Shown here: piece after piece, positions 2,415 to 20,796 of the stretch
Layout of the letters: each line of letters starts with the position of its first letter
Position numbering within the stretch: the first letter of the stretch is position 1
NCBI GenBank assembly: GCA_027622905.1
Contig: JAQBVV010000012.1
Coordinates: 1 to 42,490 of the forward strand
DNA length: 42,490 nt
Direction: 5' to 3'
DNA from: Acidobacteriota bacterium
GTDB lineage: Bacteria > Acidobacteriota > Vicinamibacteria > Vicinamibacterales > UBA2999
The notes under the pieces: model-generated
Database searches by the model: none
Seen by the model: only the letters and a program-made list of their open reading frames with translations
What the model was told of the DNA's origin: nothing
Translations under genes and position numbers: made by a program

Positions 2415-3599
2415 TCACGGCACGCGCGCCGAGACGATCCGCGAGCTGAGGGTTCCGGTGTGGCCGGTTGCGTCTGCCGGCAGGTCTGTTTCGTTCCACG
2501 CGAGGATGAACCCTGTGTTCCACGGGCGGATCGCGGGAATCAGGGAAGCGCTTGGCGTGTGCGTGAGCTGCCGCTCGTCGCCGAGGCGTTCTCCACGCGC
2601 ATTGAATGCCTGAAAGAAAACCTCGTGCTGCCCGCTACTGTCGTCGCTCCATGCAAGACCGAGGCGGCCCGCGTTCCAGTCCAGATACGCGCCGATAGAG
2701 TCCCCAGGCGTGTCGGTGACGCGGTGGGCCGCCAAGTCGATGCCCGCGCCGAACTCGTCGGCGGGCGAGACTGCCAGATAGATCTCCTGGTTGCCGTCGC
2801 GCTCGTCGAACCAGGTTACTGCGGCGCGCCCGTCGACAAGCGCGAGGTCAGGGTACTTCGACGCGAAGCCGTCATCGGGCGTCAATTGCCGCACGACCGG
2901 TGTTCCGTCGAGGCCCGTATGAACCAGGAACAGTTCCTCCGCCTGCGTCCCGGCAGCCGCATCGAACACGACCCAGGCGTTTCCCTCGCCGTCCAGCGCA
3001 GCGTTGAGATTCCATGTGGTTCGCCCGGCAAGCGCTACCCGCGTGGGTGCACCCAGGGAGACACCGGCTGTGCTCCACCAGCTTGTCCAGATAGAGGATT
3101 CGGCTTCCGTGTCGTCATGAATCCACGCGGCGAAGATCCGGTCCTCGTGGAGACCCACGACGGTGTTGCGTCCAGACTGGGCGAGGGCGATCGCCCACTG
3201 CGCTTCTCCATCGCGGTTCCAGACCCCCAGCTTCGGGGTGAGTTCGCCCGTGTCCGCCTCTTCATACCAGCCGACGATCAATCGCTCTCCATCAGACACC
3301 AGGTCAGCTTCGTAGGCGTCGTCGGTGCCTACCGTCAGACGGCGCGCAGGTCCGGATGGCTGGCCCGACGCATCGAGCGTGCGTGCGTAGATTTCGGGGT
3401 GCCCGTCGCGCGTGTCGTACCACGCCACAGCGTACCCGTCTGTCAGGACGCTCAGGCTGGCTTCGTGCGCGCCGAATGCGGCAGGGGTGTCACTGACATC
3501 GACGAACGCTGGGGCGGGGGAGCCGCAGGCGGCGAGAGCCGTGATGGCCGCGAGGGCGGCGGTGTATGCGACGGACGCGCGCTTATCGCGCGCCGCCAC
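2415..3599 (-). CDS. Beta-propeller-like lipoprotein
   Basis: A 394-residue lipoprotein with signal ALAAC-G at Cys25. The body consists of repeated blades with a recurring pattern: x-A/T-W-x-D/E-x-R-D-G-x-x-E-I-Y, then G, then L/T. Clear copies are AWYDTRDGHPEIYA near residue 60, TWFDERDGNQEIYL near 260 and AWSDDSSGQHEVFF near 310. This resembles sialidase-like or WD-type propeller surface proteins. The start is a GTG inside the last codons of the chelatase gene (17 nt overlap), so it is probably co-translated with it. A role as an outer-surface ligand-binding partner of the chelatase system is inferred from position only. Confidence 0.75.
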   Translation of the reverse strand: MAARDKRASVAYTAALAAITALAACGSPAPAFVDVSDTPAAFGAHEASLSVLTDGYAVAWYDTRDGHPEIYARTLDASGQPSGPARRLTVGTDDAYEADLVSDGERLIVGWYEEADTGELTPKLGVWNRDGEAQWAIALAQSGRNTVVGLHEDRIFAAWIHDDTEAESSIWTSWWSTAGVSLGAPTRVALAGRTTWNLNAALDGEGNAWVVFDAAAGTQAEELFLVHTGLDGTPVVRQLTPDDGFASKYPDLALVDGRAAVTWFDERDGNQEIYLAVSPADEFGAGIDLAAHRVTDTPGDSIGAYLDWNAGRLGLAWSDDSSGQHEVFFQAFNARGERLGDERQLTHTPSASLIPAIRPWNTGFILAWNETDLPADATGHTGTLSSRIVSARVP

Positions 3600-5028
3600 G
3601 GTGACGCCTTCGCCAGAGGAGGAGCAACAGGATCACGGGCGCGCCGGTCAGCAACACGATGAACTCGGCACGAGTCGTGGAGCCTCCGGGGACAGTCGAG
3701 GACTGCGGGCTGTCCTCCTGCTGGTCCATGACGTAGCCTTCGAGTTGACGGGCCATCCGGCTCATGGCTGGAACAGTGTCGAGATTGCGCGCCATCTCCG
3801 CGTCGTTCTCCTCCGCGAAGTTCTGAGCATCCTCCGCGCCAGACTCGATATCGACACCGGTCGCTTCCTCCATCGATCGTCTGAATCCGTCGAGCGCAGG
3901 CACCGGAATACCCGCCTTGAGTCCCTCCTCCAGCACGTACTGCTGAAGCCGTGGATTGCCGCACGTGAACTCCGCGCATCCCACGCCGTGTCGGTTCACG
4001 CTCGCCACGTACTCCTGGAGCAGCTTCGTCGCGGTCGCGCTGTCTGCCTCCCAGTAGCCCTTTCGGATCGTCTCCACCATCCGGGCGGTCATGTCCTGGT
4101 AGGCGAAGGGTGAGTTCGTTTCGAAGAACTGCTGCATGCCGAGGTTGTGCTTGTCCTCCACGTAGACGTCGAACGTTTCCTTCCACTTCGCGTCGTCGAT
4201 GACCTCGGGCGCGGTGGCGTCCCAGCCCCACAGATATTCGGTAAAGGCGCGCATCTCACCGGCGCCGGCGTAGCCTTCCTCCTTCATGCCTTCGATCCAT
4301 GTCGGGTTCACGTAGCGCGAGCGGAACTCGGTCCCAATAAACTTCTCGATCGAGGTCATCTCCGGGCGACCGGGATCGCGGGTATTGGTCACGACCATCT
4401 CCGGCGTGGTGCCGTCCATGTTTCGAACCGCCGTGGCCAGCCCGCCCATGTACATGTAGAAGTCGTCGTTGTCGAGCGCGCCGTACAGCATGGTCGAACT
4501 GCTGTGGACGACTTTCTCGGTGCCCGACAGCGCCAGCCGGAACACGTCCTCCATCGGGTCGCCCCAGAAGCCGTTGCCGTACGCATGTCCGAGCTTGCGG
4601 AGATAGTCGTCGGCCATGCCCGCGTCGGTGTCCCAGCTGCCACTGGCGGCCGCGATCGTCGAGGTATTGAGATTGATCTGTCCGGGTGCTTCGTCGAAGA
4701 TCCAGACGCCCGCGCGTCGGTCGGCATCCTCCTCGGAGTAACCGCGCTCCATCAGCGTCGCCTTCGTGCTCAGGTAGTGCCGACGCACGTAGTTGTCGGC
4801 CTCGTCCAGCGCCTTGACGCGCTGCACAGCCTCATCCATCAGACGCGTGACGTTGCTGAACATGCCCTCGGCGGCGCTGGCGATCACGATGTCCACGCGT
4901 GGTCGGTTCAGCTGTGCCCGGGGAATCACATCGACGCCCACGACCTTGCCGCGCACATCCCAGACCGGACGGGTGCCCAGCAGATAGAAGATCTGCGACT
5001 CGAGGACGCCCTCGTGGCGCCTCGTCAC
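3583..5028 (-). CDS. CobN/HmuS-type chelatase, C-terminal part of a frameshifted gene
   Basis: This reading frame (481 codons from a nominal GTG) continues the CobN/magnesium-chelatase H-subunit fold begun in the upstream frame. Recognisable family segments are RHEGVLESQIFYLLG, TRPVWD and the following INLNTS and YMGGL stretches. The C-terminus has a Ser/Gly/Thr-rich linker, one hydrophobic anchor (FIVLLTGAPVILLLLLW) and a basic tail, so the protein is tethered in the membrane by its C-terminus. The GTG is not a convincing independent start: it lies within the conserved W-G-x-E motif of the upstream frame. With the frameshift repaired the protein would be about 1323 residues, the normal size for CobN. 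The next gene starts within its last 17 nt. Confidence 0.85.
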   Translation of the reverse strand: MTRRHEGVLESQIFYLLGTRPVWDVRGKVVGVDVIPRAQLNRPRVDIVIASAAEGMFSNVTRLMDEAVQRVKALDEADNYVRRHYLSTKATLMERGYSEEDADRRAGVWIFDEAPGQINLNTSTIAAASGSWDTDAGMADDYLRKLGHAYGNGFWGDPMEDVFRLALSGTEKVVHSSSTMLYGALDNDDFYMYMGGLATAVRNMDGTTPEMVVTNTRDPGRPEMTSIEKFIGTEFRSRYVNPTWIEGMKEEGYAGAGEMRAFTEYLWGWDATAPEVIDDAKWKETFDVYVEDKHNLGMQQFFETNSPFAYQDMTARMVETIRKGYWEADSATATKLLQEYVASVNRHGVGCAEFTCGNPRLQQYVLEEGLKAGIPVPALDGFRRSMEEATGVDIESGAEDAQNFAEENDAEMARNLDTVPAMSRMARQLEGYVMDQQEDSPQSSTVPGGSTTRAEFIVLLTGAPVILLLLLWRRRHRGGAR

Positions 5029-7555
5029 CCCAGATGACGAACGACACTTTCTCCGGGTACTTCCCGTTCTGTTCCACGTGGTCGGCCAGCATCTGCTGCG
5101 CCAGCGTCACGCCGAGGTCCCATGACGCCGGTTTCGGCACCTTGTCGGGATCGATGCCGAAGAAGTTGCGTCCGGTCGGATACGCGTCGGGATTGCGAAG
5201 CGGTTCGCCGCCACCGCCGGTACCGACGAACCCTCCACGCAGCGCGCGCACCAGGCTGTCGAGCTCACGTGGGCCCGACTCGACGATGCGTGCCTCCATG
5301 TCGTCTGCCAGGATCTGCGCCGTGTTGGGCAGGAGACTCCGGTCTATGCTGACGATCGCGTCGATCGTCGAGTCGCGCATCTCCTTGTCCGGTGTCACCC
5401 CGAACGTATGCAGACCGTAGGGGATGTTCTGGCCCCGAAGCAGCAACAGGTGCTCCTCAACCTCGTGGACGGTTTCTTCCGTCAGGCTGTTGGGTTCATC
5501 GATCTCCAGGCTCAGGTCCTGCGCGATACCGAGTTCGATGAGCTGCGTGCGAATGCGCTCCGCGTAGGCCAGCGCGAGTTCCGGATTGTCAGCCTGTCGT
5601 TCGCCGTAGTCGCTGATCGTTTCGCTGAGGAGCGACAGCTCCGGATAGAGACCACCCTTCTTGAACGGCGGGACCATGTGATCCACGAGCGTGGCCATTC
5701 CGCGCCGGCGTGCCACGAGGCCCTCGCCGACAACATCCACGTTGTAGATGTAGATGTCTGGCAGGTCGGCGATCAGTGCGTCCGAGGCGTCGTCGGCCGA
5801 GAGGCCGATGTCCTTGCCGTCGAGCCATTCGAGCGTTCCGTGCGTACCGACATGGATCACGGCGTCAGCCCGGAAGCCGTCCCGCAGCCAGGCGTAGGTC
5901 GCCATGTACTGGTGCGGTGGCGCCAGATCGTTGGCGTGGTAGAGCTGTTCGAGATCCTCGCCAGCGCCCCTGGCAGGCTGCGGCAGCAGGGCGATGTTGC
6001 CGTACTCCAGTGCTGGAATGACGAAGTTCGGGCCGGCATCACCCTGCACCATCATCAATTGCGACGACTCCGGTGGGCCCCAGTCATCGAGCACCTTCTG
6101 ACGGAGCGTCGGTGAGAACGCGTCGAGCCAGCGGTTGTAGTCGGACATGCCGATTTGCACCGTGGACCCTCGTGACACCAGCGCCTGGAGTTCGCCAGGG
6201 GCGTAGCTTCCCACGTTGGTTGATTTCGCGAGGAGTTCGTCGAGTAGCTCGTCCCCATCCATCGGGCTGTCGCCGACGTCGTAGCCTTCTTCGGCCAGTC
6301 GTCGCAGGATTACGGCCAGCGATTCGGCCACGTTGAGATAGCTCGCGCCGATGTTCGCCTTACCGGCGGGGTAGTTGTAGAACACGATCGCCACGCGCTT
6401 GTCGCGGTTGGCCTTGGACCCGAGCGCCGCGTACCGGAGCCCACGCTGTACCGCCATCCGCACCCGATCCGGGATCGGGGTGCGGACCACGACCGACAGC
6501 CCGGTGTCTGGATCGGTGACCCTCTCCTGGCTACCTACGACCGTCGGAGCCACCAGACCCGCCACCTCGGGCACGGCCACCTGGAAGGTGCCCTCGAACA
6601 TCGAGAGCCCGGTGGCCGACGCGCGCCACTCCTGTTCGGTGCGCCCGTACAAGCTGATCAAGTTGATGACGGGGACATCCACACCCTCAAGAATCGGTGA
6701 GGCTTCCGGCCCGGCAAACCGGAACAGCAGCGACAGCACCACGTCGGCGCGCGACTGTCCGTCCTCGTCCAGAAGCATCCGCTCGGCCGCCACGGCGTCC
6801 GGGTAGCCGAAGAAGGGCACCGCTTCGGCCCCCTGTCGCTCGACCTCGGCGATCACCGCGTCGATGAGCGCCGTCTCGCCCGTGTAGTAGGACGACTTGT
6901 AGAAGCCGACCGCGACGCGCGGCGCGCCGGGGCGCGCCTTGCCCAGTTGTTGGCGCCGGGCCGTAAACGCGTCCCAGGTACCGAAGACCTGGCCGTTCTC
7001 ATCGTCTGGATAGTAGTAGCCGAAGCTGAGGCTGGGTTCCGGATCCGGAATCGTCAGGCCGGCAACGCCAGCCTGCGCCAGGACGAACTTCAGCAGGCCC
7101 ACCTGATTGTTGAACCCGGACTCTGCCCAGAAGGCGCGAGGGGTCTCGTCATAGAGGGCGCCCTGGCTGACGTACTGCTCGCGCGGAAGCAACCCTTCAC
7201 CGACCGCGTACACCTGCCCCCGCTGGCGAACGGTGTCGACCAGATCGATATCGTGTTCTACGTTGAAGCGCTCCAGCATCTGCTGGTTCATCGTGTCCAG
7301 CACGACGACGTCCGATGCCGCGATCTCCTCGGCATCCACATTGTCGAACATCGACTCGGTCAGAAATGTGAGGGTGACCTGCTCCGCAAGCTCCGGTCGC
7401 TCCTCCAGGATGGCCTTGTAGGCCGCCAGCGTTCCTGGAAGGTTGCCATCGGAATAGACGAAGCCGATGCGCACCTGCGGATCGGCCGGCTCCTGCGCGA
7501 GGAGCCCAACTGCGGCCGCAGCGAGCACGAGCACGAGGCTAGCGAAGCGGGTCAT
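4832..7555 (-). CDS. CobN/HmuS-type chelatase, N-terminal part of a frameshifted gene
   Basis: The ATG at 7555 opens a signal peptide (MTRFASLVLVLAAAAVGLLAQ), so this CobN-like protein is exported, unlike cytoplasmic cobaltochelatase CobN. Family motifs include NYPAGKANIG at 394-403, GNIALLPQP and HVGTHGTLEW at 568-577. True homology runs to W842-G-D-E845 (5032-5021). The remaining residues down to 4832 are out of frame and are Arg/Gly-rich. Exported CobN relatives encoded with ExbB- and DUF2149-type genes include HmuS of Bacteroidota hmu loci, which has been linked to removing iron from haem. By analogy this would be a periplasm-facing (de)chelatase for a tetrapyrrole. The metal and substrate here are not known. 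The start overlaps the DUF2149 gene by 17 nt. Confidence 0.88.
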   Translation of the reverse strand: MTRFASLVLVLAAAAVGLLAQEPADPQVRIGFVYSDGNLPGTLAAYKAILEERPELAEQVTLTFLTESMFDNVDAEEIAASDVVVLDTMNQQMLERFNVEHDIDLVDTVRQRGQVYAVGEGLLPREQYVSQGALYDETPRAFWAESGFNNQVGLLKFVLAQAGVAGLTIPDPEPSLSFGYYYPDDENGQVFGTWDAFTARRQQLGKARPGAPRVAVGFYKSSYYTGETALIDAVIAEVERQGAEAVPFFGYPDAVAAERMLLDEDGQSRADVVLSLLFRFAGPEASPILEGVDVPVINLISLYGRTEQEWRASATGLSMFEGTFQVAVPEVAGLVAPTVVGSQERVTDPDTGLSVVVRTPIPDRVRMAVQRGLRYAALGSKANRDKRVAIVFYNYPAGKANIGASYLNVAESLAVILRRLAEEGYDVGDSPMDGDELLDELLAKSTNVGSYAPGELQALVSRGSTVQIGMSDYNRWLDAFSPTLRQKVLDDWGPPESSQLMMVQGDAGPNFVIPALEYGNIALLPQPARGAGEDLEQLYHANDLAPPHQYMATYAWLRDGFRADAVIHVGTHGTLEWLDGKDIGLSADDASDALIADLPDIYIYNVDVVGEGLVARRRGMATLVDHMVPPFKKGGLYPELSLLSETISDYGERQADNPELALAYAERIRTQLIELGIAQDLSLEIDEPNSLTEETVHEVEEHLLLLRGQNIPYGLHTFGVTPDKEMRDSTIDAIVSIDRSLLPNTAQILADDMEARIVESGPRELDSLVRALRGGFVGTGGGGEPLRNPDAYPTGRNFFGIDPDKVPKPASWDLGVTLAQQMLADHVEQNGKYPEKVSFVIWGDEAPRGRPRVADLLSAGHPSGLGCARQGRGRRCDSPGTAEPTTRGHRDRQRRRGHVQQRHASDG

Positions 7556-7892
7556 CGTCGTCCTCCGGCACGTAGATGATCTGCCCGTCGGCCAGCCGGT
7601 ACGCCGTGCCGAGCCGCTCACCATCCCCTTCGGCCGTCTCTCCACTGACGCGGTACGCCTCGATCGTCGTGCCTTCCTTGATGATGATCTCTCGCTCGCC
7701 CTGCGCATTGGTCCGCACCATCGTCACGCTGCTCGTGGGGTCGAGCAGGTCGCCCATCCGGTAGACGCTGAAGAGCGTGACCATGAGTCCGACGATGAAC
7801 ACGATAGAGACGTCGAAAAGGTTGGCGATCCCCGCGAGTGGATCCTCTTCCATGGGTTCTTCCGGCGACGGCAGATGGAGGAAACGCGCCAT
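7539..7892 (-). CDS. DUF2149 domain protein (ExbD/HmuV-like)
   Basis: A 117-residue protein: a short cytoplasmic N-terminus, one transmembrane helix (about 27-45) introduced by EEDPLAGIANLFD, and a soluble C-terminal domain ending in an acidic tail. Asp27 at the start of the helix matches the proton-carrying Asp of ExbD/TolR/MotB in position. DUF2149 proteins typically sit beside a MotA/TolQ/ExbB protein and an exported CobN, as here. The ATG at 7892 follows the channel gene's stop by one base (TGA-C-ATG). Together the two are predicted to form an inner-membrane, proton-driven motor energising the chelatase or its partner. This is inferred from family and context. Confidence 0.85.
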   Translation of the reverse strand: MARFLHLPSPEEPMEEDPLAGIANLFDVSIVFIVGLMVTLFSVYRMGDLLDPTSSVTMVRTNAQGEREIIIKEGTTIEAYRVSGETAEGDGERLGTAYRLADGQIIYVPEDDDDPLR

Positions 7893-7893
7893 G

Positions 7894-8547
7894 TCAGCCT
7901 TTCCCCGGCCGTGGATCGGAGCCGCCCGATGGCGCATCCAGTTCGGTCGCGATCCGCTCGACAAGGAAGCGTTGCTCTCTGACGGCCTCCGTAGCCCAGG
8001 CCTGGCGCGCCGACGCGACCACGTAGGCAAGCGTGCCAGTGGTCAACCCCACGATCGTGCTCGTGAACGCAACGACCATCTGCCCGGCCATGACCTCCAG
8101 GTTCCCGGTGGCCAGCGATGCCAGCGACGCTCCCATCGGAATGAGCGTGCCAATAAGTCCGATACTCGGACCGACTTTGACAAGCGCTCTCGGCGCCAGC
8201 AGCGTGTGACGAACCTGTTCCTCGCGTTCAAGCAGCAGGTGTTCGAGGCCGCCGTGTTCCAGGGCCCCGGCTTGCCGACTGGCCCAGACGTCGGCTGCCA
8301 GCCGCCGCAGCAGCGCCGGTAGTTCCGCCAGCCTGGTCTCGGTGGCGTCCAGGACCGGCCCTCCCTGCAGCCAGCGCTTGATATCGAAGCCCCGACGCTC
8401 GCGCTGCCGCGCCACAAGCTCTACAACAGCGTGTCCGGCCATGAAGAGGGCCGCGGCCACGCACACCCATAGCAAGACCATGATGGGGAAGCGCAGCACC
8501 TGCCCGAGCGCGAAGAGCCCGTTCTCGAGGAGTTGCAGCACACTCAT
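7894..8547 (-). CDS. MotA/TolQ/ExbB proton channel family protein (HmuU-like)
   Basis: A 217-residue protein with an N-terminal transmembrane helix at about 20-42, a cytoplasmic helical segment, and the family signature VGPSIGLIGTLIPMG at 125-139. This is followed by the second and third membrane helices, ending in TSTIVGLTTGTLAY at about 162-175. The ATG at 8547 overlaps the upstream gene's stop as ATGA, a standard coupling signal. Family knowledge: such proteins form pentameric stator channels with a single-TM Asp-bearing partner. The adjacent DUF2149 protein is the obvious partner. No TonB or TonB-dependent receptor gene is visible in the window. Confidence 0.88.
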   Translation of the reverse strand: MSVLQLLENGLFALGQVLRFPIMVLLWVCVAAALFMAGHAVVELVARQRERRGFDIKRWLQGGPVLDATETRLAELPALLRRLAADVWASRQAGALEHGGLEHLLLEREEQVRHTLLAPRALVKVGPSIGLIGTLIPMGASLASLATGNLEVMAGQMVVAFTSTIVGLTTGTLAYVVASARQAWATEAVREQRFLVERIATELDAPSGGSDPRPGKG

Positions 8548-9128
8548 CGTCGACTCCAGACGGCGTAGCTCGCGCCCAGGCCGAGCGAGGAGCCGGTCAT
8601 CGCCAGCGCCCATGTCGGGATCATTTGCCGTTGCAGGTCACCCGGCTGCGCCGTGAGGCTCTGCGCGGCACCCCAGCCGTCCAGAAATCCAGGCAACATC
8701 GCGACGCCAAGAGCCAGCGCGCAGACAAGGACCAGCGCTTCGTCGCGTAACTGCGGCGGCGCGAACTCCGGATAGTGCCGCGCACGCATCGACACCGCCA
8801 GCACCGTGCAGGCCAGCGGAACCGCAACCCACCTGGGCAGGCCCTGCGTGGCCAGGATGCCACTCCACACGCCGGCGAGGACACCGCCGATTCCAGCAGC
8901 CGTGGCGGCCCAGGCAGGACGCAGTAGAAACGCCGCCGCGCCAGCGGCCGCCAGACAGCCGACGACCTGCACCGGAGGGACCCCGCTCCACGCTGTCCAT
9001 CCCGCGCCGAGGAATAACAGCGCTGCGGCCGCGGTGTGGCTTCGACGCGAGGGCTCCGGTGCGGCAACAAGGACCACTGCGGCCAGGGCGCACAGCAGAC
9101 TCAATGCGTAGAAGGGCAATGTCATCAT
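8544..9128 (-). CDS. Multi-pass membrane protein of the chelatase operon
   Basis: A 194-residue, very hydrophobic Ala/Leu-rich protein with about six transmembrane segments and short loops; I see no catalytic motif. It is the first gene of the unit that continues with ExbB-like, DUF2149, CobN-like and propeller genes, and is coupled to the ExbB-like gene by an ATGA overlap. In Bacteroidota hmu loci an unassigned membrane protein (HmuT) also accompanies HmuS/U/V, so this may be the positional equivalent, but sequence similarity cannot be judged here. Two adjacent ATG codons (9128 and 9125) could serve as the start. Confidence 0.7.
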   Translation of the reverse strand: MMTLPFYALSLLCALAAVVLVAAPEPSRRSHTAAAALLFLGAGWTAWSGVPPVQVVGCLAAAGAAAFLLRPAWAATAAGIGGVLAGVWSGILATQGLPRWVAVPLACTVLAVSMRARHYPEFAPPQLRDEALVLVCALALGVAMLPGFLDGWGAAQSLTAQPGDLQRQMIPTWALAMTGSSLGLGASYAVWSRR

Positions 9129-9228: not shown

Positions 9229-12200
9229 TCAGCGCGGACGCACGACAAACAGCAGGTCGCCTTCCGTCACGAGCTGTCCATCGTGCGCGTGCACCCTGAC
9301 GATCTCGTACTCCAGTTCGGTGGGGTAGACGACCTCGTCGCGGTTGAACGCCTCGAGCGACAACTCCTCGTACAGCTTCATCGCCTCGGTGAGACAGAGC
9401 GTCGTGTCCGTGCGAATACGTGAACCGACCGTGACGAACTCAGGCCGATCGGCCGCCGGAGCCGCGTAGAAGATGCAGGAGCCCGGAGCCACGACCTTGA
9501 GCTCCCGGCTGCCTTCGATCTGGATCGCTGCGCGACCCAGCGCCCGCCGGCTGCCGCGCAGCGCATCGACCTCGGCGACCAGCGCTCCCACGTCCAGGCG
9601 CGCGACGAGTTGGGCCACGTAGCCGGTGTCATGCTGCCCCCGGACAAACTCCTCGTCCATCAGGATGCGCTTCAACAGTGGAAGGTTGGACCCGACGCCC
9701 TCGATACGCGCGCTCTCGAGCCACGTCACGAGTGTGGCGATCGTTGCTGCTCGATCCGGTCCCTGCGCGATGACCTGCGCCATCAGGTTGTCGTAGAAGG
9801 GCGAAATCCGGTCGCCCGCCTCGACCGCCGATATGACGCGCACGCCCGGCGTCTGCGGGAGGGTGCACACCGACACGACGCCTGGATCAGGGACGATCTT
9901 GAGGGTCTGTTCCGGGTCCGGGGCAAACCGCTCGGCGTTGATGCGAAGCTCGATGGCATACCCCTGCTCGGCGACGGCGAGATCCTCGATCGAGTCGCCT
10001 GAGGCGATCCGGAACTGTTCTCGCACGATGTCGATGCCGGTCGTCGCTTCGGTGACCGGATGCTCGACCTGGAGCCTGGCGTTCATCTCCATGAAATAGA
10101 TCTGCGCGGCGTCGAGATCGAAGATGAACTCCACGGTGCCGGCGCCGACGTACCCGACATCGTCAGCCAGCGCGCGCGCATGGGCGAAGGCCGCGTCACG
10201 GAGCGCCTCCGGCAGGAGCGTCGAGCCTGATTCCTCGATCACCTTCTGCTGCTTGCGCTGGACGCTGCAGTCGCGCAGTCCGAGCACATGCGTAGTCCCA
10301 TGGCGATCCCGCAGGATCTGGACCTCCACGTGGCGGAAACGCACGACCAGCTTCTCGATATAGAGGTCCCGGTTCCCGAAGGCCGACTGCGCTTCGGCGC
10401 CCATCCGGAGAAACGTGTCGTGCAGGTCCTCGGGTGACCGCACGATGGCGATCCCGCGTCCGCCCCCACCGTGGACCGCCTTGAGCACGATCGGATAGCC
10501 GATCCCTTCGGCAATGGCGACAGCCGCCTCCGGGTCCGTGACGACCCCGTGGCTTCCCGGCACGACAGGAATGTTCAGCCGGCGTGCCGTTCGAACCGCG
10601 TTCGACTTGTTCCCGGTCTGTTCCATGCTCTGCACGCCAGGGCCGATGAAGTTCAATCCGTGCCGGGAGCACAGATCGGCGAAGCCGGAACTCTCGGACA
10701 GGAATCCGATGCCTGGATGCAGGGCGTCGCACTGCTCGGTCTCGGCGAGACAAATGACCGAATGCGCGTTGAGATAGCTCTCGTCCGGCGTCGAGCCACC
10801 GAGGCAGACAAGGGCATCAGACGGTGAGAGGGATCTGGCGGCTGCCGAGTCCATGTCGGGGTCAGACTGCACGAGCACCACGCGCAGGCCATGCTCCTGC
10901 GCCGCGGTCACGAGCTTGACGGCCGTGCAGCCCCTGGCGTGAACGAGCACCTTCTTCACGGGTCGGAAGATCTTCCGAGCGGGAGGTAGCGGCGCAGGCG
11001 ACGGCTCCGTCAGGCGAGGGGATTTGCCCTCGACGACACTCGCGATCACGTCCGCCACCCGCAGGCGCGGAAGCGGTATGTCTGGATCCACCGCACGCAA
11101 CTGCCCGTCGAGGTCGTCGGCGAACGGATGCATGACGAGGGCCTGCATCGCGCCGTCGATCCGGGACAGATAATTCGAGAGGGTCGATGTCGTCGGCAGG
11201 TGAGACGGCACCACGATCCGCCCCGCAAACGGCATCGACGTGCCGGAGAAGTAGCACGTCTCGACCAGCGGATGCGTCACGAGGCTGGCCTGCGCGCCGC
11301 CGGTGCAGTCTCCGAAGCCGAAGACGAGGATCGGCAGACCCGTGTCGCGCGCAAACCGTGTGATCCGGTCGTTGACGATCGCCATCGAGAACAATGCGCC
11401 GGCGCCCTCCTTGGTTTGCATCCCTCCCGACGACAGGAAGCAGATGACCGGCACGCGCTGCTCGGCGCAGCGGACGAGCAGGCGACAGAACTTCACGCCG
11501 CTCGCCATGTCGAACGAGCCGGCCTGGAACGTCAGATTCGACACGAGCACGCCGACGCGCTGCGTTCCGCTTTCTCCGATTCGGACGCGGGCCAGCGCAC
11601 TCACCGTACCGCAGGGCACGACGCCGTTCTCCAGCGCCCGTTCGACCGCCGCGCGAAAGCCGGGAAACATCACGGGATCGACCGTCATCAGGTCGCGGTC
11701 AAGCTCCTCGACATCGGTGAAGAACATGTCGAGCAGACGCGAAGGCGTGATCGTCTCGCGCCGCTTCGTCGTCGTCAGGATGTCCTCGATCAAGAGATCC
11801 TTGTACGCGCGGTCAAGGCGATTCCAGAAATCCTTGATGCCGATATTGCGAGGCCGAATCCGCCCGTCATAGCGGCCCCCGTGCTCGGACTCGTAGTAGC
11901 TCGGCAGCAGCCGATCGAAGAAGAACGTCACGAGGCCGAACAGCGGCTCGGACACCGACGGCGACGCGGCCTTCTTCCACTCCGACACGAGCTTCATCAG
12001 CACGTCGCGCCTTCGATACCGGACCAGGCGCTGCAGCCAGATGGAGAAGCCATCGGCCAGCGCGCGAGCATCGGCGCTGGATGGTCCGGGGTTCGACGCG
12101 CCGTGCGCCACGACGTGTGCCAGCGACGCGGTCACCAGCGTCCGCACTGACTCCTGGGAAATCCGGTTGGTGTCCATGGCCTCGAACGCCACGGACTTGA

Positions 12201-13791
12201 GCTGGGCGAGCAGGCGATCGTAGACCGCGTCAAAGAGGATCAGGAGGCGGCATTCGTCGACGAACGCCGCTCGAAGATCTGGATCCAGTATGAGATCGAG
12301 AATCGTTGGATCGTCCCGTGTGCCGGCCGGGACGTCGCGCGTGCGTTCGAGGTGGTCGGTGAGCAGGCGCAGATGCGCCGGAGCGCGCCCCTTCCACGTG
12401 TTGTAGAGGTGGAACACAAGCTCCAGGAGCAGGGTTTCGCGTGCGGTCGCGAAATTGGCCTCACGTGTGCCCAGGAAGAACGAGGCCATCGCGCCCCGAT
12501 CCCGTGCGAGCGCGGCGCGTTGCTCCTGAAACTTTGTCCACGCCTGGTTGATGGCGTCGTCGTACTTGAGCTTGAGCGGGTTCTTGAGCCAGCGCTGAAA
12601 GGCCCGACGGTGCTCGCGCTCGATGCGCTTCTGAAGGTCGCCCGCCGGCCTCTCGTTTCGCGACACACGACCGTAGGTCTTGACGGTCGTGTACCGGATT
12701 CGCTTGCGGAGACCGAGATAGCGGAGGTAGCGGTACGCAATGCCGTAGACGTTCGGTTGCTGCGTGGGATTGTCGATCGTCGAGAGCGCCTTGCTCGCGC
12801 TCAGCGCCCGCATACGACCGGTTGGCGCGACGAACCGGCGAACGGAGCGCTTGTAGTGTGCGAACAGCGCGTCGTTGGTCTGGGCGCAGTGGCTTCCGAG
12901 GTCTTCTATGGTCTCGATGCTGGAGGTGATCGCGCGCTCCAGGTTCTCGACGCCACGCTTCCCGGCGAGTGGCGTGTAGTCGATCACGCCATCGAGGTAT
13001 CCCTGCGCGTACAGTTCGTATGCCGATACGCCGACGGCCTGGGCACACTCCTGCCACGATAGATTGTGGTGGCGGGCGATATGGGCCAGCGCCCTCGGTT
13101 GGATCGTGTTGAATACACCGTCGACGACGGAGAGCAGGATATTGGTCGTCGCCAGTGGAATCGCGCCACCCGAGTAGCCGTTGCCGTAGATGATGCCGAC
13201 CGTCGGCACGTGCAACTGCGCCATCTCGGCGATCAACCTGGAGATCGCATGCGCCTGGTTCGACCGGTTCGCCTCCGCGTCGGCCATCGCGCCAGGGGTA
13301 TCGATGAACGTGACGACCGGCGTCAACTGGGTCGCGAACTCTCGCGCGATCCGGACGGCGAGCACATGCTGTTCCGGCATCCATGCGCCGTTGTTGTGCG
13401 TCCGGTCCTGCGCCAGAATGCCGACCTTCCGCTCTTCGTCGGCAATCGTCAGCAGTACCTCGACGGCGTACAGCGGTCCGCGCGCCAGTTCCCTGGAGAT
13501 CGGCCATCCCAGCGCATCAACGGCGGTCCTCACGCCAGCGCGTGACGGATTCTCGGCCGGCGCAACGGTCGCCCGCACGTACTCATCGACATCGAGCTTC
13601 CGCAGCTTCTGTAACTGCTGCTGAACCCGGCGGTTGGACACGATCCCCTGGATGTTCTGGGGTACCGAGGGGGTCGACGAACGTGGGAACAGCGAAAAGT
13701 CGGACGCCGCCCGCTCCGTGTCGAGAAACAGTGGGTCGACCGGTCGGGTACGAGACGCCGCTCTGTCTTGAGGGGGGGATGTATCTGACAC
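9229..13791 (-). CDS. Single-chain biotin-dependent acyl-CoA carboxylase (CT-alpha/CT-beta/BC/BCCP)
   Basis: A 1520-residue protein carrying all parts of a biotin carboxylase on one chain. An AccA-like carboxyltransferase domain (about 40-320) has FIDTPGAMADAE at 162-173 and GNGYSGGAIPLA at 203-214. An Arg-rich helical region (about 380-690) follows with no motif I know. An AccD-like domain (about 700-920) has FLSSGGMQTKEG at 785-796 and GDCTGGAQAS at 827-836 but no CxxC zinc ribbon. The biotin carboxylase domain (about 944-1400) has the ATP loop HGGGGRG at 1107-1113 and EMNARLQVEHPVTE at 1235-1248. The C-terminal carrier has EAMKL with biotinyl Lys1472. It would carboxylate an acyl-CoA; acetyl- or propionyl-CoA are obvious guesses but the substrate is unknown. 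The start is GTG without a clear ribosome-binding site. Confidence 0.92.
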   Translation of the reverse strand: MSDTSPPQDRAASRTRPVDPLFLDTERAASDFSLFPRSSTPSVPQNIQGIVSNRRVQQQLQKLRKLDVDEYVRATVAPAENPSRAGVRTAVDALGWPISRELARGPLYAVEVLLTIADEERKVGILAQDRTHNNGAWMPEQHVLAVRIAREFATQLTPVVTFIDTPGAMADAEANRSNQAHAISRLIAEMAQLHVPTVGIIYGNGYSGGAIPLATTNILLSVVDGVFNTIQPRALAHIARHHNLSWQECAQAVGVSAYELYAQGYLDGVIDYTPLAGKRGVENLERAITSSIETIEDLGSHCAQTNDALFAHYKRSVRRFVAPTGRMRALSASKALSTIDNPTQQPNVYGIAYRYLRYLGLRKRIRYTTVKTYGRVSRNERPAGDLQKRIEREHRRAFQRWLKNPLKLKYDDAINQAWTKFQEQRAALARDRGAMASFFLGTREANFATARETLLLELVFHLYNTWKGRAPAHLRLLTDHLERTRDVPAGTRDDPTILDLILDPDLRAAFVDECRLLILFDAVYDRLLAQLKSVAFEAMDTNRISQESVRTLVTASLAHVVAHGASNPGPSSADARALADGFSIWLQRLVRYRRRDVLMKLVSEWKKAASPSVSEPLFGLVTFFFDRLLPSYYESEHGGRYDGRIRPRNIGIKDFWNRLDRAYKDLLIEDILTTTKRRETITPSRLLDMFFTDVEELDRDLMTVDPVMFPGFRAAVERALENGVVPCGTVSALARVRIGESGTQRVGVLVSNLTFQAGSFDMASGVKFCRLLVRCAEQRVPVICFLSSGGMQTKEGAGALFSMAIVNDRITRFARDTGLPILVFGFGDCTGGAQASLVTHPLVETCYFSGTSMPFAGRIVVPSHLPTTSTLSNYLSRIDGAMQALVMHPFADDLDGQLRAVDPDIPLPRLRVADVIASVVEGKSPRLTEPSPAPLPPARKIFRPVKKVLVHARGCTAVKLVTAAQEHGLRVVLVQSDPDMDSAAARSLSPSDALVCLGGSTPDESYLNAHSVICLAETEQCDALHPGIGFLSESSGFADLCSRHGLNFIGPGVQSMEQTGNKSNAVRTARRLNIPVVPGSHGVVTDPEAAVAIAEGIGYPIVLKAVHGGGGRGIAIVRSPEDLHDTFLRMGAEAQSAFGNRDLYIEKLVVRFRHVEVQILRDRHGTTHVLGLRDCSVQRKQQKVIEESGSTLLPEALRDAAFAHARALADDVGYVGAGTVEFIFDLDAAQIYFMEMNARLQVEHPVTEATTGIDIVREQFRIASGDSIEDLAVAEQGYAIELRINAERFAPDPEQTLKIVPDPGVVSVCTLPQTPGVRVISAVEAGDRISPFYDNLMAQVIAQGPDRAATIATLVTWLESARIEGVGSNLPLLKRILMDEEFVRGQHDTGYVAQLVARLDVGALVAEVDALRGSRRALGRAAIQIEGSRELKVVAPGSCIFYAAPAADRPEFVTVGSRIRTDTTLCLTEAMKLYEELSLEAFNRDEVVYPTELEYEIVRVHAHDGQLVTEGDLLFVVRPR

Positions 13792-13907: not shown

Positions 13908-14450
13908 TCAGGCGCCGCAGCGCAATCGCGAAACTGCGCCCGTGAGGTTCTCCGTGCCGATCGACAGATAGAGCTCGCGATCGGTGATCGACAGGCTGAA
14001 CGACACGCGCCGGTCGAGGTGGGCGACAAGCCCGTCGACCAGGCTCCGATTGAGGGCGTACAGTTCGAGCGCCGCAGCCTGATGGATCCGCTCGCCCGCC
14101 AGCAGCTTCAGGTAGCGAACCGGGTCCTTGTGCGTGTAGACGGCGACCCGCCCGGCCGCTTTCGCGGCCTTGTGCAGGCGCGCGGCATCGGGCGTGCCAA
14201 CCTCGATCCAGGCTGTGATCCCACCGGTCAGGTCCCGGACGCTGATGGTGGGCTCGTCCGGTTCCGACACGCCGCGCGAGAACGTGATGCCCTCGGTGAA
14301 CTCCAGCGCATACGCGAGCACGCGAGCCACAAGATAGGCCTCCGACTCCGACGGGTGGCGCGCGACGCGCAACGACAGCGACTCGTAAACCTGCCGGTCG
14401 GCGTCAGCAAGCTCGATGTCGAAATTGTGGATCGTCGCTCCGAGTGCCAT
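13908..14450 (-). CDS. yaeQ: YaeQ family protein
   Basis: A 180-residue protein matching YaeQ almost end to end: N-terminal MALGATIHNFDIELADADR, RHPSESEAYLVARVLAYAL at about 31-49, FSRG and DEPTI, WIEVGTPD at about 81-88 and VAVYTHKD. YaeQ has a nuclease-like (PD-(D/E)XK-related) fold; in enteric bacteria it was noted as a suppressor of rfaH defects, but its activity is not settled. It lies 26 nt after the TerB-like gene on the same strand and 116 nt before the carboxylase, so it may be co-transcribed with either. Confidence 0.92.
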   Translation of the reverse strand: MALGATIHNFDIELADADRQVYESLSLRVARHPSESEAYLVARVLAYALEFTEGITFSRGVSEPDEPTISVRDLTGGITAWIEVGTPDAARLHKAAKAAGRVAVYTHKDPVRYLKLLAGERIHQAAALELYALNRSLVDGLVAHLDRRVSFSLSITDRELYLSIGTENLTGAVSRLRCGA

Positions 14451-17731: not shown

Positions 17732-20116
17732 CTACGCGCGCGCGGCCTGCAGCGCCTGGAGCACGGCGGCGTCTCTCAGCGGCACCCGGCGGATACGCAC
17801 ACCCGTCGCATCGAAAACGGCGTTGGCGACGGCCGCCATCAGCGGCTTGCAGGCGGTTTCACCGGCTCCGTAGTGAGGGAGATCGGGCCGTTCGGGATTC
17901 GGGTCGCCGTTGACGATGATGACGTCGATCTGCGCCGGCGTATCGCGGTGCGTCAGCGTTGGATGCGTCACCCAGTCCACGCTGGTGACCTTCTCGGTGT
18001 CGAACGCGACTTCTTCGTGCAGCGCCCGGCTGAGGGAATGCATCATCGCGCCTTCGACGGTCCGTCGCAGCCCTTCGGGGTTGATGACGAGCCCGCAATC
18101 GTGGGCGCACACCAGACGTTTCACCCAGACGTGACCGGTGGTGCGATTGACCTCCACCTCCGCGATCTGCGCGACGACGGTCTGGCTGCGGTAGGTGTAG
18201 GCGACACCGCGGCCGGTGAGGATGTTTCCGGTGCCCGCCGTCTTGGGCGATGGACGGCTGTCCCAGCCGAACGCCTCGGCGGCGGCTCTCACGACGGCGA
18301 TGGAGCGGGCGCGCTTGAGTCCGCTGTCGTCCTCGGTGCTGGCCGTCAGCAGGCGCAGTCGAAACTCGACAGGGTCGGCGTTGGCGGCTGCCGCCAGCTC
18401 GTCGATAAACGACTCGGACGCAAACGTGACCTGGGGACCATCCGGGTCTCGCAGGTTGCCCGTGCGCAGCGGCGTTTCGTGCGCCAGCGGCATGCTGACG
18501 ACATCTCCCGTCATACGCTGATGTTCGATGGCGTACATGCTGGACGGCAGGGAGGCACGACCACTGGACGCCGGTGTCCGTCTGATGCCGAACAGCTGCG
18601 CGATCAGGACGGTGTCGGGCTCGTTGTAGCCGAGATGGTAGTAGTCGGCTGCCCGGGCGTTGTACTCCAGCGCGACAAGCTGTCCCTGGTCGTCGAGCCC
18701 TCCGCGCATCGAAATGGCGTACGCCGGTCCCTTGGTATCCCAGGCCGTCTCCTCATCGCGCATCCACTGCACCCGGACGGGTCGTCCCAGTTCCTTCGCC
18801 AGAAAGGCGGCCTCGAATCCGGCGTCGTCGGCCGCGGTGCGACCGTAGCCCTGGGGCCCCTCCATCCAGACCACCCGGACCTGCTCACGCGGCATCTGCA
18901 GGAACTCGGCGACGCCGTTCCGCATGCCGTAGGACTTCATGTCGTTGGAATAGATCGTCATCTGTCCGTCCGACGGATCGGCGGTCGCGTGTGCGGGGCT
19001 GATGGCCGTGTGGCCCTGGAACGGAATGTCGTACTCAGCTTCCACGATGCGAGCGGCGCCCGCGAGCGCGGCGTCCGGGTTGCCCAGCACCTCCGGCGGG
19101 CGAGTGGACGTCGGCGTCGCGCTGCGCATGTAGCGGTGCAGGTCGTTCGACGACGGGAATGGTGCCGTGGCCGGCTTGCGCCAGTCGACAGCCAGCCGTC
19201 TGGCGGCGGTCATTGCCTGCTCTTCGCGCTCGCAGACAACCGCGACGTAGTTGCCTCGGCTCACGACCCTGACAAATCCTGGAAGATCGCGAACCGACGA
19301 CTCGTCGATACTGACCAGCGTCGCACCCGCAAACGGCGGCTTCACGTTACGGGCGTGGACCATGCCTGGCAACGTGACGTCGACAGCCCACCGCAGTGAG
19401 CCGTCGACTTTCGCCGGGATGTCGTATCGCGGCAGCGACTGCCCGACGATGTTGAGATCCTGCACCGCCTTGACGGCCGCGACACCCGCCGTGGCATTGA
19501 TCGTGTCGCCGGTCAGCGTGATGTTGAATCGCCGCCCACCGACGAGATCGCCGAAGGTCGCCGTCCGGGATGGATCGGCGGTCACGCTGATGACACCCTC
19601 GCGGATGCTCAGTTGCGCCACCGGCACACCGAAGCGCTCCGACGCCAGTTCCAGCAGCACGCGCCGGGCCTCGGCGGCGACACGCCGCATCGGCCAACCA
19701 TCGACCTGGATCGCATCCGACCCGCCGGAGCCTCCCTGATCGACCGTGACGTCGGTGCTGCCCATGACCAGACTCGTCTGGTCGTAGGCGATATCCAGCT
19801 CGTCGCACATCATCTGGCGGAAGGCTGTGCCTGTGCCCTGGCCGCAGTCGGTCTTGCCGACGTAGAAGGTGGCCGTGCTGTCCTCGTGAATGGCAATCCA
19901 GGCGTCAAGCTGCCTGAAGTCCGGGTCCGGATAGAGAGCACCGGCCTGGGCCTGCACCGCGGTGGCAGATCTGAAACCGAGTGGCCCGACGACAGCCGCC
20001 GCGCTGAAGCCAACGAGCAGCAGCCCCGAGCCTTTGAGGAAGCCGCGCCGAGAGAGGGCGTCATCCGGTGTCGTCCGCTGATCGGTCGTCTCCGGCGTTC
20101 GGGTTGGCGCGCTCAT
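17732..20116 (-). CDS. Molybdopterin-binding large subunit, xanthine dehydrogenase/IorB family, Tat-exported
   Basis: A 794-residue molybdenum hydroxylase subunit. The N-terminus has a twin-arginine motif SRRGFLKG at 22-29 followed by a hydrophobic stretch, so the enzyme is folded in the cytoplasm and exported. Family segments include QGTGTAFRQMM, VDQGGSGGSDAIQ, EGPQGYGRTAADDAGFEAAFLAKELGRPV split across the central Moco domains, and near the C-terminus HYGAGETACKPLM, whose Glu is the catalytic base position. The ATG at 20116 has GGAGG seven bases upstream and overlaps the small-subunit stop as ATGA. Relatives oxidise aldehydes or N-heterocycles (IorB, isoquinoline 1-oxidoreductase); the substrate is not predictable. 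No separate FAD subunit is present, as in the Ior type. Confidence 0.92.
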   Translation of the reverse strand: MSAPTRTPETTDQRTTPDDALSRRGFLKGSGLLLVGFSAAAVVGPLGFRSATAVQAQAGALYPDPDFRQLDAWIAIHEDSTATFYVGKTDCGQGTGTAFRQMMCDELDIAYDQTSLVMGSTDVTVDQGGSGGSDAIQVDGWPMRRVAAEARRVLLELASERFGVPVAQLSIREGVISVTADPSRTATFGDLVGGRRFNITLTGDTINATAGVAAVKAVQDLNIVGQSLPRYDIPAKVDGSLRWAVDVTLPGMVHARNVKPPFAGATLVSIDESSVRDLPGFVRVVSRGNYVAVVCEREEQAMTAARRLAVDWRKPATAPFPSSNDLHRYMRSATPTSTRPPEVLGNPDAALAGAARIVEAEYDIPFQGHTAISPAHATADPSDGQMTIYSNDMKSYGMRNGVAEFLQMPREQVRVVWMEGPQGYGRTAADDAGFEAAFLAKELGRPVRVQWMRDEETAWDTKGPAYAISMRGGLDDQGQLVALEYNARAADYYHLGYNEPDTVLIAQLFGIRRTPASSGRASLPSSMYAIEHQRMTGDVVSMPLAHETPLRTGNLRDPDGPQVTFASESFIDELAAAANADPVEFRLRLLTASTEDDSGLKRARSIAVVRAAAEAFGWDSRPSPKTAGTGNILTGRGVAYTYRSQTVVAQIAEVEVNRTTGHVWVKRLVCAHDCGLVINPEGLRRTVEGAMMHSLSRALHEEVAFDTEKVTSVDWVTHPTLTHRDTPAQIDVIIVNGDPNPERPDLPHYGAGETACKPLMAAVANAVFDATGVRIRRVPLRDAAVLQALQAARA

Positions 20117-20607
20117 GCCACACCTCCCGTGCGAGCGGTCGAACTGGCGGTTATCGAGGTCGCGGCCCGTTTGATGGCAGCCTGAATCCGGTAGTACGTC
20201 ATGCATCGGCACAGCGTGTTGGCCATGCCCTGCCGGATCTCGGCGTCGGTCGGATTCGGATTGCGGCTCAGGAGTACCTTGGCTGTCATGATCTGCCCGT
20301 TCTGACAGAAGCCGCACTGTGGCACCTGCTCGTCGATCCAGGCCTGTTGCACCGGGTCGAGGTTGCCGTCCCTGGCCAGACCCTCAAGCGTGGTGATCTC
20401 ACCGGTCACAGCCGACGTGGGCGTGATACACGAGCGCACGGCCGCCCCGTCCACGATCACGGTGCAGGCTCCGCACTGGCCGAGCCCGCATCCGAACCGC
20501 GGACCCTGAAGGCCGAGATCGTTGCGCAAAATGTAGAGAAGGGGAGTCGAGGGTTCGATGTCCACGGTGTGCGTGCTACCGTTCACCCTCAGTGTGACGT
20601 TGCTCAT
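20113..20607 (-). CDS. (2Fe-2S)-binding small subunit, IorA/xanthine dehydrogenase family
   Basis: A 164-residue protein with two [2Fe-2S] sites. The N-terminal plant-ferredoxin-like cluster uses Cys residues in FGCGLGQCGACTV (about 38-50) and the following single Cys; the C-terminal helical cluster uses CGFCQNGQ (about 97-104) and LCRCMTYYRI (about 131-140). It passes electrons from the Moco subunit encoded next to an external acceptor. The ATG at 20607 is preceded by AGGAGA; upstream codons in the same frame are not conserved in character. It has no signal of its own and would be co-exported with the Tat-tagged partner. Confidence 0.93.
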   Translation of the reverse strand: MSNVTLRVNGSTHTVDIEPSTPLLYILRNDLGLQGPRFGCGLGQCGACTVIVDGAAVRSCITPTSAVTGEITTLEGLARDGNLDPVQQAWIDEQVPQCGFCQNGQIMTAKVLLSRNPNPTDAEIRQGMANTLCRCMTYYRIQAAIKRAATSITASSTARTGGVA

Positions 20608-20796
20608 CTCTGGTCTCCTAGGGGGTTCCAGGTGAACCTCCTGCGAAATCAAGGCGGTCGACGAAACATCGGACCATGGCAACTGTAGTCGGTCGCAGCC
20701 CCTGGGATCAACGTTGCGGCTGGCGTGATGGTCCTCGGTATTGATCGTGCACGCTGAGGCCTACACGGTATCGTCGGCAGGAAGGGAGAGCATCTG

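Follow-up and report, generated by a model that had tools for sequence, protein, structure and literature searches.

Acetyl-CoA carboxylase (ACC) is the enzyme that starts fatty-acid synthesis. In the four-subunit bacterial ACC it is made of AccA, AccB, AccC and AccD, while the eukaryotic-type multidomain ACC, which is also represented by SACE_4237 of Saccharopolyspora, carries the biotin carboxylase (BC), the biotin carrier (BCCP) and the carboxyltransferase (CT) in one chain, in the order BC-BCCP-(central)-CT. LCCs are bacterial enzymes that likewise unite BC, BCCP and CT in a single polypeptide, with a CT of the PCC/acyl-CoA type. A further single-chain enzyme, AccS, is known from Shewanella. 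In S. oneidensis, homologues of AccABCD are absent save for one extra AccB, and AccS, of 1517 aa, is a single-protein ACC (PMC4793157). This AccS is biotinylated, has a size of about 170 kDa and is transcriptionally activated by AccR, a divergently encoded LysR regulator conserved in Shewanella; cells without AccR, in which AccS is low, have a growth defect that can be relieved with accS or with the E. coli genes accA, accD and accBC (PMC11602165). The described range of AccS is confined to Shewanella and a small number of gammaproteobacterial genera (PMC11602165).

Here we analysed a window of 42,490 nucleotides that makes up a whole contig (C87) of an acidobacterial genome (order Vicinamibacterales) of 3.43 Mb, assembled in 239 contigs at 97.4% completeness and 4.1% contamination. 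On sequence comparison, and with a probability that we put at roughly 0.9, one of its genes encodes a single-chain ACC of the AccS (AccADCB) family, which has most likely supplanted an ancestral enzyme encoded by four genes.

Domain layout and relation to Shewanella AccS

The accS-type gene occupies positions 9229..13791 of the minus strand as one unbroken open reading frame of 1520 codons with a GTG start at 13791, and the plus-strand frame over the same interval contains many stops. We recognised it from the reading frame and from its match to the full 9kkm_A chain. A chance reading frame was considered and is ruled out by the G+C content at the three codon positions (0.67/0.46/0.82) together with the collinear full-length relative in the PDB.

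All domains given below lie on the minus strand. The chain opens with an AccA-like CT-alpha domain (residues ~101-300, 12892..13491), matched by Pfam ACCA at residues 130-293 and carrying a GYSGGA motif (Gly208-Gly209, 13165-13170) that is conserved among the AccS sequences displayed in our alignment. The AccD-like CT-beta domain (residues ~691-940, 10972..11721) is matched by NCBIfam TIGR00515 (accD) at residues 693-839 and contains, by alignment, the motifs SSGGM and DCTGGAQAS. The two halves are separated by a linking domain of about 390 residues (~301-690, 11722..12891), which aligns with 9kkm and for which a Pfam search gave no match. Both Pfam and NCBIfam then place the BC domain at residues 945 to ~1394-1397 (9610..10959), with the Pfam sub-domains Biotin_carb_N at 945-1056, CPSase_L_D2 at 1062-1269 and Biotin_carb_C at 1281-1393. 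The BCCP domain (residues ~1445-1519, 9235..9459) closes the chain; NCBIfam BCCP matches residues 1422-1517, Pfam Biotin_lipoyl gives a weak match at residues 1452-1477, and the motif TEAMKL, with its EAMKL biotin site, contains the predicted biotinyl lysine, Lys1472 (9376-9378). An AlphaFold model of residues 1-710 from single-sequence input reached a mean pLDDT of 36 and was kept out of fold searches.

The original prediction had described a single 1520-residue chain with the order CT-alpha, CT-beta, BC, BCCP and a C-terminal biotin carrier, an order unlike that of eukaryotic ACC. The Pfam and NCBIfam domain positions agree with it on each of these points, and we add the strand, which it had left unstated, and the ~390-residue stretch between the CT halves, which it had not mentioned.

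It had also held that the chain could not be placed among the single-chain families from sequence alone, and here our results differ. A phmmer search against the PDB aligned residues 7-1519 of the query with residues 5-1514 of 9kkm_A at 1573 bits. This entry, like 9w4a, is named "Acetyl-CoA carboxylase multifunctional enzyme AccADCB" and has 1517 residues; 9kkm/9w4a alone match the whole chain, and the other matches listed cover essentially the BC part only. Identity to the 9kkm chain in a MAFFT alignment is 48% overall, with 55% in CT-alpha, 36% in the linker, 56% in CT-beta, 56% in BC and 47% in BCCP, and the end-to-end collinearity takes in the linker between the CT halves. Our literature search did not find a paper on the 9kkm/9w4a structure. 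By eye, 9kkm is nearly identical to an accS fragment on plasmid pOXA436, whose segment, judging by OXA-48-like genes, probably comes from Shewanella. Because of this near identity, and because S. oneidensis AccS is also 1517 aa long, we infer that 9kkm is the Shewanella AccS (SO_0840). The window chain is therefore placed by its end-to-end match to 9kkm/9w4a, AccS of Shewanella being a known enzyme. The original prediction had stated that its claim of an unassigned arrangement would be undone by an unmistakable orthologue among the characterised single-chain carboxylases, with the same order and a known substrate. AccS is such an orthologue in descent and domain order and, by genetics on the Shewanella enzyme, for acetyl-CoA as the substrate.

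The two proteins share the domain order, a similar length (1517 versus 1520 residues), collinearity throughout, the CT and biotin-site motifs and the status of sole AccA-type carboxylase of their genome; they differ in belonging to different phyla. Compared with the four-subunit bacterial ACC, the window chain has four domains homologous to the four subunits and would be expected to carry out the same two half-reactions, but all four are fused, with the extra 390-residue linker, and its BC shares only ~43% identity with AccC from family relatives. With the eukaryotic-type ACC it has in common BC, BCCP and CT in one chain; its order, by Pfam and NCBIfam, is CT-BC-BCCP rather than BC-BCCP-central-CT, and its CT is made of AccA- and AccD-like halves, alpha before beta. 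The chain is also distinct from YCC-type chains and from LCCs, in which the CT is not of this divided kind with a linker between the halves: Pfam finds no PCC-type CT in one piece, the Carboxyl_trans match being fragmentary only, and ACCA matches instead.

This comparison bears on the reading that the protein is an LCC-like acyl-CoA carboxylase with another main substrate, such as propionyl- or long-chain acyl-CoA, and not the ACC of the cell. Broad substrate ranges are possible in LCCs and other single-chain carboxylases (PMC6491548), but the CT halves are AccA/AccD-like in alpha-beta order and not of PCC/LCC type, the AccS genomes tested are devoid of canonical accA, and S. oneidensis AccS acts as an ACC in vivo (PMC11602165). 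We thus regard another main substrate as very improbable, and an acetyl-CoA carboxylase remains our preferred reading.

Distribution of AccS and of separate acc genes

We searched for the CT half of AccS at a threshold of E 1e-40. Among 162 genomes of the host's order, the host alone gave a match; a phylum sample of 396 genomes contained 18 carriers, host included. The other carriers belong to family f56 (genera g148 and g176) and family f42 (g121), and their CT halves are 51-59% identical to that of the window where a single match spans the CT half. Twelve of these loci were read further. In 11 the AccS gene is complete, with 1518-1553 codons, and in the twelfth it is truncated by the contig boundary; EAMKL is present in all 12. 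A scan of viral contigs gave no match, and a short-peptide-pattern scan of genome contigs returned AccC-type relatives only, probably because the patterns were taken from this one sequence.

The host genome was searched for Carboxyl_trans, ACCA, Biotin_carb_C and BCCP, a check for separate acc genes that the original prediction had proposed. We found no separate accA, accD, accB or AccC-type accC in this 97.4% complete assembly; the matches were the AccS gene, a PCC-type set on contig C119 and one marginal BCCP match. The PCC-type complex on C119 could be an alternative maker of malonyl-CoA.

Canonical accA is missing from all 11 AccS genomes tested (the host and ten others), but of 42 genomes related to the host at the family level, 37 have it. 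This difference (0/11 versus 37/42) points to AccS as a replacement of the canonical acc genes. Missing accA alone is no proof of such a replacement, since three near-complete genomes of the host's family (G011, G013 and G018) have neither canonical accA nor AccS and show PCC-type carboxyltransferase matches only. Accordingly, there seems to be a third route to malonyl-CoA in this family, perhaps through a PCC-type enzyme.

Genomic neighbourhood and host assignment

The partial 16S sequence of the host is, over its full length, at most about 78% identical to the rRNA records listed from a plasmid collection, most of them from Proteobacteria and Firmicutes, in keeping with an acidobacterial host. 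Upstream of accS, about 117 bp from its start, lies a YaeQ-family gene on the same strand (13908..14450, minus). A simple promoter scan, a method weakly informative for this phylum, was empty. With the plasmid-borne LysR as query, neither the window nor the acidobacterial contexts that we read gave a homologue of AccR; unlike Shewanella AccS, the window gene has no divergent AccR nearby. AccR is a regulatory association and not part of the enzyme. On pOXA436 (L041:13964-18417), the LysR gene and a broken, truncated Shewanella-type accS, joined to cmlA5, sit beside the carbapenemase gene blaOXA-436. Elsewhere in the window, positions 17732-20682 of the minus strand encode the large subunit of a molybdenum-binding dehydrogenase and an adjacent [2Fe-2S] subunit, a pair resembling aldehyde/xanthine oxidase.

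The downstream neighbours (3583..9128, minus) are by homology a frameshifted cobN-like chelatase gene, DUF2149, MotA/ExbB and an unknown. The cobN-like gene (3583-7708, minus) is split into the overlapping reading frames 3583-5028 and 4832-7708, which reflects a frameshift or an assembly error; its relative in G057, a genome of the same order, is one reading frame of 1314 aa (L052:12123-16067). Most of the downstream block is conserved in G057, without accS in the part read, and the CT half of AccS was not found in the G057 genome.

As AccS occurs in a single genome of the order and the assembly is fragmented, with some contamination, we considered whether C87 is a contaminant and the host an acidobacterium without AccS. 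The G+C and tetranucleotide profile of C87 is close to that of other host contigs (r 0.97-0.98 for 8-kb pieces versus 0.93-0.99), the cobN block adjacent to the gene is shared with G057 at 48-76% identity (63-76% for the cobN, DUF2149 and ExbB genes), and the other accA, accD, accB and AccC-type accC genes are absent from the host, which would follow from AccS being native to it. Together, the composition, the conserved block and the missing canonical genes make contamination unlikely, and we hold it to be quite improbable. We accordingly treat AccS as a gene of the host.

Origin, catalytic residues and proposed function

In a tree of BC domains, the AccS sequences are monophyletic with a support of 100 rather than grouped with the AccC of relatives. 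The window sequence is sister to G309 (g176; support 97), the Shewanella-type 9kkm joins these two at 96, inside the sampled acidobacterial AccS, and g148 and then g121 fall outside this group. An independent origin of the fusion in the host lineage, from its own acc genes, might be suggested by the lack of a full-length fusion among family relatives. The BC domain nevertheless belongs with other AccS in the tree and not with AccC of the family, and the linking domain can be aligned with its counterpart in 9kkm; on the tree and the collinearity we reject such an origin, which has hardly any chance of being correct. The tree, which includes a single gammaproteobacterial sequence, fits a transfer between phyla in either direction.

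The BC domain of the window chain retains the residues that correspond to K159, K238, E276, E288, N290, R292, Q294, E296 and R338 of the E. coli enzyme, and the CT glycine motifs are kept in the alignment. At the R338 position, Arg is found in all 23 other BCs sampled (AccC/PCC-type), whereas the seven other AccS examined (L094, L095 and L097-L100 among the loci) all have Glu, Asp, Thr or Leu, with Glu in 9kkm. The window AccS, with Arg1318 (9838-9840, minus) in the BC alignment, is alone in having Arg among the AccS read. At the E296 position the 9kkm chain carries Ala, perhaps through engineering.

Tentatively, we can picture AccS as an enzyme mainly of acidobacteria, from which Shewanella and its relatives would have acquired it. 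It would have ousted the four-gene ACC in every lineage where it became established, and it would perform the BC half-reaction without the R338-type Arg that other BCs keep, except in the window copy. We find this broader scenario possible but rather doubtful.

For the window protein itself, we infer the activity, the substrate, the role of the linker and a replacement through gene transfer. Lys1472 of the C-terminal BCCP would be biotinylated, and the BC domain would use ATP and bicarbonate to form carboxylated biotin on this lysine. The linker probably allows the CT halves, which follow each other in alpha-then-beta order, to pair either in one chain or across two. AccS most likely took the place of the ancestral four-gene ACC in this acidobacterium.

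Taken together, these results widen the range of AccS beyond gammaproteobacteria, adding no fewer than three acidobacterial families. They also reveal natural variation, in an enzyme with a deposited structure, at a BC position where the other sequences sampled do not vary. Finally, they offer a clean candidate case in which an essential four-gene enzyme would have been replaced by a fused one.
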